Of a DNA stretch of 47,497 bases, positions 9,772 to 31,704 are shown piece by piece. Each line of letters opens with the position of its first letter. Within the stretch, counting starts at the first letter, position 1. Source of the stretch: Chloroflexota bacterium (GTDB lineage Bacteria > Chloroflexota > Anaerolineae > Anaerolineales > UBA11858); assembly GCA_018648225.1 (NCBI GenBank), contig JABGRQ010000121.1:1-47497 (forward strand), written 5' to 3'. The position numbers and the translations under genes are program-made. The notes under the pieces were generated by a model. The model ran no database searches. It was not told the DNA's origin and was given only the letters and a program-made list of their open reading frames with translations.

Positions 9772-9784
9772 TTCACCCCAAAAC

Positions 9785-9826
9785 AAAAAAAGAGTGGGCT
9801 GGTGAGAACCAGCCCGCTCTTTTTTT
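9785..9826. terminator. Bidirectional terminator between the aminopeptidase and UPF0316 genes
   Basis: A GGGCTGG/CCAGCCC stem with a TGAGAA loop is extended by AAAAAAAGAG on the left and CTCTTTTTTT on the right. It therefore has a U-tract in both directions, and it sits between two convergent stop codons (9771 and 9828). Confidence 0.88.
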
Positions 9827-9827
9827 G

Positions 9828-10355
9828 TTAAGACCGCCAAAATCCCCGCAAAACAGGGCGCACGTCTTCAGCCGTCACAAAGGCTGTTTCATCGACTTCT
9901 CGTACAATTCGATCCACTGCGACGACACTTTTGCGACGCACACTGCAACTAATCAGTGTGACCATGCCATCCTTGCCGCGCGCTGGAATTTCAGTTACGG
10001 CGTAACCCTCACCACGAAGACGCTCAATAATGGCAGCGCCGCGCCGCGGACTGACAATGCTCAGGTGCGTATGCCCTACAGCCAGACGCTCTTCAATTAA
10101 CATGCCCACCACGTTACCCGTGGCAAACCCCGAAGCATAACCAATAATATTCAGAGGGTTATCCAGATTGCTGAGTACGGACGTAATCGCCAGTACAAAA
10201 ATACCCGACTGGAAAAATCCAAGAATCCAGGCTGCAACTTTACGCCCGCGCATCACAAATAGCACGCGCAAGGTATCCAAACTCATGTCGGAAACGCGCA
10301 ACGAAAATATCAGCAGCGCGCCCAGTAATGCCTGGGGGCCAAAGTCAAATACCAT
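9828..10355 (-). CDS. UPF0316 membrane protein with C-terminal DUF2179 domain
   Basis: A 175-residue protein with about three N-terminal membrane segments (roughly residues 8-25, 38-60 and 66-88, including LGFFQSGIFVLAITSVLSNL and YASGFATGNVVGMLIEERLA) followed by a soluble alpha/beta DUF2179-like domain (about 98-165, with HLSIVSPRRGAAIIERLR and DGMVTLISCSVRRK). The whole matches the UPF0316 family, whose function is not established. It begins 3 bases after the tsaD stop, so the two are cotranscribed, which is a contextual link only. Confidence 0.85.
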   Translation of the reverse strand: MVFDFGPQALLGALLIFSLRVSDMSLDTLRVLFVMRGRKVAAWILGFFQSGIFVLAITSVLSNLDNPLNIIGYASGFATGNVVGMLIEERLAVGHTHLSIVSPRRGAAIIERLRGEGYAVTEIPARGKDGMVTLISCSVRRKSVVAVDRIVREVDETAFVTAEDVRPVLRGFWRS

Positions 10356-30442: not shown

Positions 30443-30748
30443 ATGTCTGTCTTAGATAATGTTAATATCAACGAAGAAGGTTTCATGACTGATCCAGGTC
30501 AGTGGAGCAAGGAAATTGCTACAGAAATCGCCAAGGGCGAAGGCATTGCGGAACTGACCCCCGAGCATTGGAAAGTCATCGAGTTCTGCCGCGCCACCGC
30601 GGAGGATTCCGGCGCAGCCCCTACATTGCGCCAGATCACCAAAGGGACGGGGATCTCCACAAAAGAACTGTTTGCGCTTTATCCAAAAGGTCCCGCCAAG
30701 AAAGTTGCTAAAGTTTCGGGACTTGGAAAACCTGAAGGCTGTGTATAA
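30443..30748 (+). CDS. DsrC/TusE-family protein with one redox cysteine
   Basis: A 101-residue DsrC/TusE-like protein. The start VNINEEGFMTDPGQWSKEIA and the C-terminal arm GLGKPEGCV are diagnostic. The penultimate Cys100 (CysA) is kept, but the position 11 residues earlier, CysB in DsrC of sulfate reducers, is Ala89 in KKVAKVSG. DsrC with both cysteines forms the trisulfide substrate of DsrMKJOP; single-Cys members (TusE type) act only as sulfur relays. Cys49 (VIEFCRA) is internal. Together with the absence of dsrAB this suggests a sulfur-transfer role. GGAG lies 7 bases before the ATG. Confidence 0.9.
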   Translation: MSVLDNVNINEEGFMTDPGQWSKEIATEIAKGEGIAELTPEHWKVIEFCRATAEDSGAAPTLRQITKGTGISTKELFALYPKGPAKKVAKVSGLGKPEGCV

Positions 30749-30790
30749 CCGCCTAATCAATAGAAATTGCACCATATAAAAGGATTAAAA

Positions 30791-31294
30791 ATGACAAACG
30801 AAAACCGACATATTGCTTTCATCTGCTCAAAAGGTGATCTGGACATGGCCTACCCGGCGTTGGTAATGGGCTGGGCAGCGCTTGGTAATGGCATCGACGT
30901 GACCATTTTCTTCACCTTCTGGGGCATGGATATCATCAACAAGAAACGGCAGAAACGTCTTGAGCTTTCTCCGATTACGAAAACCAGCATGAAAATGAGC
31001 TTGATGGGATTGCCAACTGGAAATCTGGGTATTCCCAATATCCTGAGCATTATACCCGGCATGACTGCGTTTACATCCTGGTTTATGAAGAAAAAGATTG
31101 CCGAAGTGCAGGCCCCCCCGGTTGACGAGTATATCGAAATGCTCGTTGATGGCGGTGCGAATTTGTATGCGTGCAAGATGTCTGTAGATATGTTCGGCCA
31201 GAGCATGGATGATTTCGTTGATGGTGTTCAGGGAATTGTCACCGCGAGCGATTTCATGGATATGACTGAAGGTGCGCAGATCGTCTTTATCTAA
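30791..31294 (+). CDS. DsrE2-like (DsrE/DsrF/DrsH family) sulfur-transfer protein
   Basis: A 167-residue protein of the DsrE2 / peroxiredoxin-like family. HIAFICSKGDLDMAYPALVM carries Cys12, and the conserved second site is Cys128 in NLYACKMSVDMFG. Hydrophobic middle segments (LGNGIDVTIFFTFWGMD; IPNILSIIPGMTAF) suggest membrane association, as in other DsrE2 proteins. DsrE2 passes sulfur to TusA in sulfur oxidisers. AGGA lies about 7 bases before the ATG; an upstream in-frame start has no ribosome site. Last gene of the SQR operon. Confidence 0.85.
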   Translation: MTNENRHIAFICSKGDLDMAYPALVMGWAALGNGIDVTIFFTFWGMDIINKKRQKRLELSPITKTSMKMSLMGLPTGNLGIPNILSIIPGMTAFTSWFMKKKIAEVQAPPVDEYIEMLVDGGANLYACKMSVDMFGQSMDDFVDGVQGIVTASDFMDMTEGAQIVFI

Positions 31295-31300
31295 ATATTT

Positions 31301-31351
31301 ACTAGAATCAATATGGGTCAGGATAATATCCTGACCCATATTGATTCTAGT
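31301..31351. repeat. 51-base near-perfect palindrome after the SQR operon
   Basis: Positions 31301-31325 and 31327-31351 are exact inverted copies (25 bp each) around a single base, with outer ends ACTAGAATCA and TGATTCTAGT. It starts 7 bases after the DsrE2-like stop. There is no T-tract on either side, so a standard rho-independent terminator is not indicated, although a transcript would fold into a very long hairpin. Confidence 0.88.
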
Positions 31352-31386
31352 ATTCTGCCACCGAATTTGTTGTAATTATTTCAAAT

Positions 31387-31415
31387 TTGACAAATCTTTG
31401 CGTAACTTATATGCT
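31387..31415 (+). promoter_or_regulatory. Sigma70-type promoter of the 56-residue membrane protein
   Basis: A perfect -35 TTGACA (31387-31392) is 17 bases from a -10-like TATGCT (31410-31415). The start would be near 31422, about 57 bases before the ATG at 31479. Confidence 0.55.
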
Positions 31416-31478: not shown

Positions 31479-31649
31479 ATGAAGCTCAATCCACCAAAGA
31501 ACATTACTTTCTATATTTCTGTTGTGCTGGCAGCCCTGGGCTTGATTGGCAGTTTTGTTAGCATCCCCGTTGTATCAGGTTTGGCCTTTTGGTTTGTGGT
31601 CGTTGGCTTCGTTCTTTTGGCAGCCGGCCTGCTCGTCAAAGGTTTATAA
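31479..31649 (+). CDS. 56-residue two-span membrane protein (MKLNPPKN type)
   Basis: An ATG with AAGGAG 8 bases upstream opens a 56-codon frame. A short polar start MKLNPPKNITFY is followed by two hydrophobic helices (ISVVLAALGLIGSFVSIPVV and LAFWFVVVGFVLLAAGLLV). Small proteins beginning this way are, from memory, common in Anaerolineae; the function is unknown. It has its own promoter and terminator and stands alone between the sulfur island and the minus-strand signalling operon. Confidence 0.7.
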   Translation: MKLNPPKNITFYISVVLAALGLIGSFVSIPVVSGLAFWFVVVGFVLLAAGLLVKGL

Positions 31650-31668
31650 AGTACTACTTTGCTCTTCA

Positions 31669-31704
31669 GCGCCCTGGTGTAAACCAGGGCGCTTTTCTTT
31701 TTAA
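31669..31704 (+). terminator. Terminator after the 56-residue membrane protein
   Basis: GCGCCCTGG and CCAGGGCGC form a perfect 9-bp stem with a TGTAAA loop, followed by TTTTCTTTTT. Confidence 0.9.

Follow-up and report, generated by a model that had tools for sequence, protein, structure and literature searches.

Intrinsic (Rho-independent) terminators are recognized by a stable, G+C-rich hairpin past the last gene of an operon, followed directly by a U-rich tract of about 8 nt. A stable stem could also halt the exonucleases that trim back messages ended by Rho, and stem-loops that protect mRNA 3' ends include the REP elements, which are defined by many related copies within a genome. Remnants of MITEs or insertion sequences, finally, are recognized by terminal repeats that have counterparts at other genomic places, and by an empty site in a close relative. 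PMC4824070 reports that the ribosome represses an E. coli terminator almost completely when it is placed a few bases past the stop codon, and that terminator activity climbs to its maximum past about 30 bp from the stop codon. In PMC13155455, inverted repeats are described as enriched in bacteria 50-80 bp past stop codons, and PMC5381666 describes compensatory change as well as terminators shared by convergent genes; both fit the 3'-end hairpin reading favoured below.

Analysis of the window (the whole stretch of DNA under study, 47,497 nucleotides) revealed a perfect palindrome of 53 bases close behind a group of sulfur-related genes (Table 1). Its arms (31300-31325 and 31327-31352) are 26 bp each and 100% complementary, with a one-base centre at 31326. 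The first-pass annotation had described an exact 25-bp repeat at 31301-31351 with a one-base centre; the exactness and the centre stand, while the length must be extended, as the outermost T/A pair belongs to the repeat. Among the 12 inverted repeats listed for the window it ranks first and is the only one with complete complementarity. As RNA, either strand folds with an energy of -40.2 kcal/mol, a stability that none of 200 shuffles equalled; the segment 31313-31352 folded alone, with the outer 5' arm absent, yields -19.7 kcal/mol. The palindrome begins at the sixth base past the stop codon of the DsrE-like ORF, leaving a gap of 5 bases. It is G+C-rich in its inner stem only, and this is followed by the 3' outer arm AUAUUGAUUCUAGUA, which is weakly U-rich. 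The missing U-tract, already pointed out, is borne out: the 8 bases 3' of the stem, TTCTGCCA, hold three T, and the palindrome does not appear in the output of a terminator scan that looks for a hairpin plus U-tract. Rfam gave no match in the window at the gathering score.

Table 1. Coordinates of the palindrome, of its neighbours in the window and of dispersed palindromes in the own genome and in G006
Feature	Coordinates	Strand	Remarks
Perfect palindrome	31300..31352	.	As RNA: 25-bp stem + 3-nt loop
Inner 12-bp stem, more G+C-rich, 3-nt loop	31313..31339	+	18 nt past stop codon
DsrC-like gene, same cluster as the DsrE-like gene	30443..30748	+	PF04358, E 4.3e-30
DsrE/DsrF/DrsH-like gene	30767..31294	+	PF13686, E 1.1e-32; closes the sulfur cluster on that strand
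Promoter-like TTGACA-17-TATGCT	31387..31415	+	10/12 matches; between palindrome and 56-aa ORF
56-aa hydrophobic ORF	31479..31649	+	AAAGGAG in front; no Pfam match
Canonical terminator-like hairpin, T-rich tail	31668..31693	+	3' of 56-aa ORF; -23 kcal/mol
Dispersed palindromes, CCGAAAAAAGGGGTGTGC...GCACACCCCTTTTTTCGG type, own genome	L082:11875-11930, L103:8404-8459, L076:4380-4436, L081:12028-12084
Dispersed palindromes, CCGAAAAAAGGGGTGTGC...GCACACCCCTTTTTTCGG type, G006	L044:7234-7296, L048:4250-4306

Ahead of the DsrE-like gene, the same strand carries the DsrC-like gene and genes for a DUF1641 protein, a pyridine nucleotide-disulphide oxidoreductase-like protein and an ArsR-type regulator; farther left lie a LysR-type regulator on the opposite strand, a second, weak DsrE match and a Sulf_transp protein. 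Given this gene content, "sulfur island" is a fair label for the gene set left of the palindrome. The earlier placement of the palindrome at the right border of this island, after its last gene, is likewise correct, the DsrE-like ORF ending at 31294 and Pfam confirming the cluster. The promoter-like site to the right of the palindrome constitutes weak evidence, since the region holds 26 such sites in total against 20.2 in shuffles. Right of the terminator-like hairpin, a glycosyltransferase gene follows on the opposite strand.

A DsrE search of genome_contigs confirmed 194 stretches. The best 80 of these were taken, almost all of them assigned to Anaerolineales or other Chloroflexota; 78 of the 80 offer at least 120 nt past the match end and its stop codon, L168 and L175 dropping out because of a contig end. 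Within 100 nt past the stop, 56 of these 78 loci possess a hairpin whose arms measure 8 bp or more; for 10 bp or more the count is 47, for 12 bp or more 37, for 16 bp or more 13 and for 20 bp or more three. In 31 of the 78 loci, no hairpin reaches an arm length of 10 bp within this distance. Folding past the dsrE stop reached z ≤ -3 at 44 of the 78 loci (mean -3.24), compared with 1 of 78 for control segments inside the gene (mean -0.24) and 0 of 71 for control segments 500-600 nt downstream (mean -0.08). The 47 hairpins that reach this arm length start at a median of the 25th base, two of them by the 6th base, and 31 have fewer than five T in the next 8 bases. In a set of 18 genomes (own included), which partly overlaps with the 78 loci and leaves out the fragments L007, L012 and L090 as well as the paralogue L089, 14 possess an arm, 9 bp or longer, that begins no more than 55 nt from the stop. 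The hairpins after dsrE differ in sequence from one another. Because many relatives' loci carry hairpins of such unlike sequence, the site past dsrE is conserved as a hairpin position and not as a sequence. The contig of sister genome G003 stops 79 nt past the dsrE stop, in an apparent single arm of a dispersed palindrome. The comparison with relatives for an empty site met the other hairpins just described; in G005, the nearest relative by its DsrC fragment, the contig ends inside dsrC, and no dsrE match at orthologous identity was found.

Long palindromes were counted in an own-genome sample of 101 sequences (the first 20 kb of each of contigs C1-C100, plus the window; 1,328,310 bases), in which 20 sequences consist of N only and the called bases number 1,283,059 (~1.28 Mb). 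If one mismatch and a loop of up to 8 are allowed, this 1.28-Mb sample contains 62 palindromes whose arms measure 18 bp or more, the arms reaching 26 bp in 15 of them, the 31300-31352 palindrome included; with exact arms, 42 have at least 18 bp and 12, again including this one, at least 26 bp. The longest arm in three dinucleotide shuffles of the sample, at the same mismatch and loop limits, was 16 bp. The palindrome is far beyond chance, yet its kind is not rare in the genome. Its perfection had been regarded as unstable and hence remarkable, a view that fails in this genome, where those 42 exact palindromes persist despite an encoded SbcD homologue. The latter was identified by a profile match, as in 17 of 21 genomes, and a missing palindrome nuclease is thereby ruled out as the cause of the many palindromes. 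Missing Rho as the cause of strong hairpins is ruled out in the same way, since Rho scores above the cut-off in 6 of 7 genus genomes and also in the own genome.

These palindromes favour gene ends. Based on crude ORF calls (at least 90 aa, longest first), 47 of the 62 are found no more than 60 nt past the predicted 3' end of a gene, versus 4.1% of 45470 random placements; outside ORFs, the figures are 45 of 54 palindromes versus 29% of 4000 random placements. Half of the palindromes outside ORFs (27 of 54) stand between convergent ORFs, versus 409 of 4000 random placements. Among all 62, 28 are listed as convergent, the 31300-31352 palindrome among them since the 56-aa ORF falls below the size limit; counting that ORF, its setting is tandem. 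By the 60-nt rule, fifteen of the 62 lie away from any 3' end, and five of the 62 fall inside crude ORFs. A T/A run of at least four is absent in 14 of the 62, one of which (L157) has T7 deeper in its arm. In 10 of 37 cases in the own genome, hairpin onset is as near the stop codon as that of the palindrome studied here. Among hairpins at gene 3' ends, long perfect ones thus form a common, genome-wide class in this organism, which comes close to the "common terminator type in this genome" that the first-pass annotation had named as a reason to abandon its view. Elsewhere in the window, positions 9782-9829 hold a 22-bp near-perfect hairpin with A7/T7 within the stem and two flanking gene ends, resembling a bidirectional terminator.

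We favour, with a probability of roughly 0.8, the reading of the palindrome as the 3'-end hairpin of a sulfur-transfer (DsrC/DsrE) operon, stopping transcription or protecting the mRNA. This choice is made because the palindrome stands after the last gene, because many relatives carry other hairpins at this position and because gene-end hairpins form a genome-wide class; among the options offered initially, it fits best. Transcription of the operon would run through the palindrome, which would then act as RNA: once transcribed, it would fold into its 25-bp stem and fix the 3' end of the message. In a termination mode, RNA polymerase would be helped to stop by the 12-bp inner stem, rich in G+C, together with the weakly U-rich arm behind it, and 31313-31339 may accordingly represent the terminator core. 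The distance of this inner stem from the stop codon matters here because of the repression of terminators near stop codons reported in PMC4824070. In a protection mode, the stem would block 3'-to-5' exonucleases once Rho-dependent termination has occurred farther on. Lacking a U-tract and lying so close to the stop codon, the palindrome may act in either mode, stopping or protecting. Counting against the favoured reading are this same lack, the 5-base distance of the stem from the stop, the fact that relatives' hairpins start farther off (although 10 of 37 in the own genome start as near) and the 31 of 78 relatives' loci whose hairpins, if any, stay below 10-bp arms. Apart from its length, the palindrome is an ordinary feature. 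A broader proposal, which we consider unlikely, is that operon ends in this Anaerolineales genus are a slot repeatedly refilled by long exact hairpins, some from a dispersed family, with a template-switching-like process keeping the arms perfect; the 31300 palindrome would then be a product private in sequence.

Near-perfect palindromes of a dispersed type, CCGAAAAAAGGGGTGTGC...GCACACCCCTTTTTTCGG, whose inner arms vary with matching changes, were also encountered (Table 1). The arm pattern, at no more than two mismatches, occurs at 29+38 places in G000, 120+127 in G003, 47+44 in G004, 33+31 in G006, 20+22 in G005, 4+2 in G001 and 1+3 in G002, with 0-3 per strand in controls. A second dispersed type, GGCATATATGGGGGTGCG...CGCACCCCCATATATGCC, is present in G006 (L044:9010-9066, L046:18123-18179 and L054:2348-2404). 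In G003, ten listed places, on contigs C38, C54, C105, C153, C174, C184 and others, begin within the first 25 contig bases, and for this reason the dispersed palindromes probably break assemblies. Membership of the 31300-31352 palindrome in the dispersed CGAAAAAAGGGGTGTG family is ruled out by its sequence.

The exact 26-bp arms, both ending in TA at their outer side, could suggest a MITE-like remnant of two abutting terminal inverted repeats, for example TA-flanked (TA-CTAG...CTAG-TA), and other palindromes in the genus are indeed dispersed in many copies. No transposase gene lies between the arms, however, and the sequence of the dispersed family differs from that of 31300-31352. The search for further copies proposed at the outset yielded none: at up to three mismatches, neither the 26-base arm nor the outer 18 bases has another place in the own genome besides the two arms themselves, and 22 bases of the palindrome are absent from 20 further family genomes. 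Exact searches of genome_contigs and of viral contigs gave zero matches each (the own genome may be left out there), and short blastn in sampled DNA found nothing beyond 12 bases (best E 1.2). The palindrome thus has neither the related copies of a dispersed repeat nor terminal repeats matched elsewhere in the genome, and the mobile-insertion trace or recombination site suggested by the first-pass annotation loses its footing; we consider a mobile origin very unlikely.

A role at the DNA level, as a site for protein binding or recombination or as a cruciform insulating the operon from the next promoter, would suit the both-strand symmetry and the position between the operon and the promoter-like site at 31387. 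DNA-level palindromes do exist in this genome, as illustrated by the 17-bp palindrome L064:2910-2943, whose core TGTTTCACGTGAAACA we take to resemble a parS site. The usual operator, however, needs less than 53 bp of exact symmetry, and this palindrome is single-copy at a position where relatives keep a hairpin without a common sequence, making such a role distinctly unlikely. An artefact, namely a read-assembly fold-back or a mis-join at the palindrome, might be suspected in a draft of 226 contigs, all the more as palindromes end contigs in G003 and as the right-hand neighbours (small ORF, glycosyltransferase and next ORF) recur at none of the best 80 of the 194 dsrE loci within the downstream sequence of at most 2 kb that each offers. 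In a fold-back, the left flank would reappear in reverse past the palindrome, yet the sequences immediately outside the two arms are unlike each other, and a hairpin is expected here from the relatives; we therefore give this explanation, raised earlier as grounds for doubt, hardly any credence. Apart from the symmetry, the TA ends and the fact that the assembly is a draft, nothing speaks positively for these alternatives.

The palindrome can hence be dropped from the list of suspected mobile or recombination sites. Since exact hairpins of 18-28 bp frequently mark gene ends in this organism, scans for long palindromes will mostly return 3'-end hairpins, and a rule of hairpin plus U-tract would overlook part of them. 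The dispersed palindromes of the genus may merit separate study.

Like mRNA 3'-protective stem-loops, the palindrome is a stable stem-loop, lies in the 3' untranslated region and could bar exonucleases; unlike REP elements, it is present here in a single copy and does not belong to the genus's family of dispersed palindromes. It differs from intrinsic terminators in its 25 pairs, its location very near the stop codon and the lack of a U-tract after the stem, and because of the latter two features we file it as an operon 3'-end hairpin instead of a canonical intrinsic terminator. With intrinsic terminators, including bidirectional ones, it nevertheless shares a stable hairpin directly 3' of the last gene of the operon, symmetry on both strands and a complementarity of the arms that is kept despite sequence change between species.
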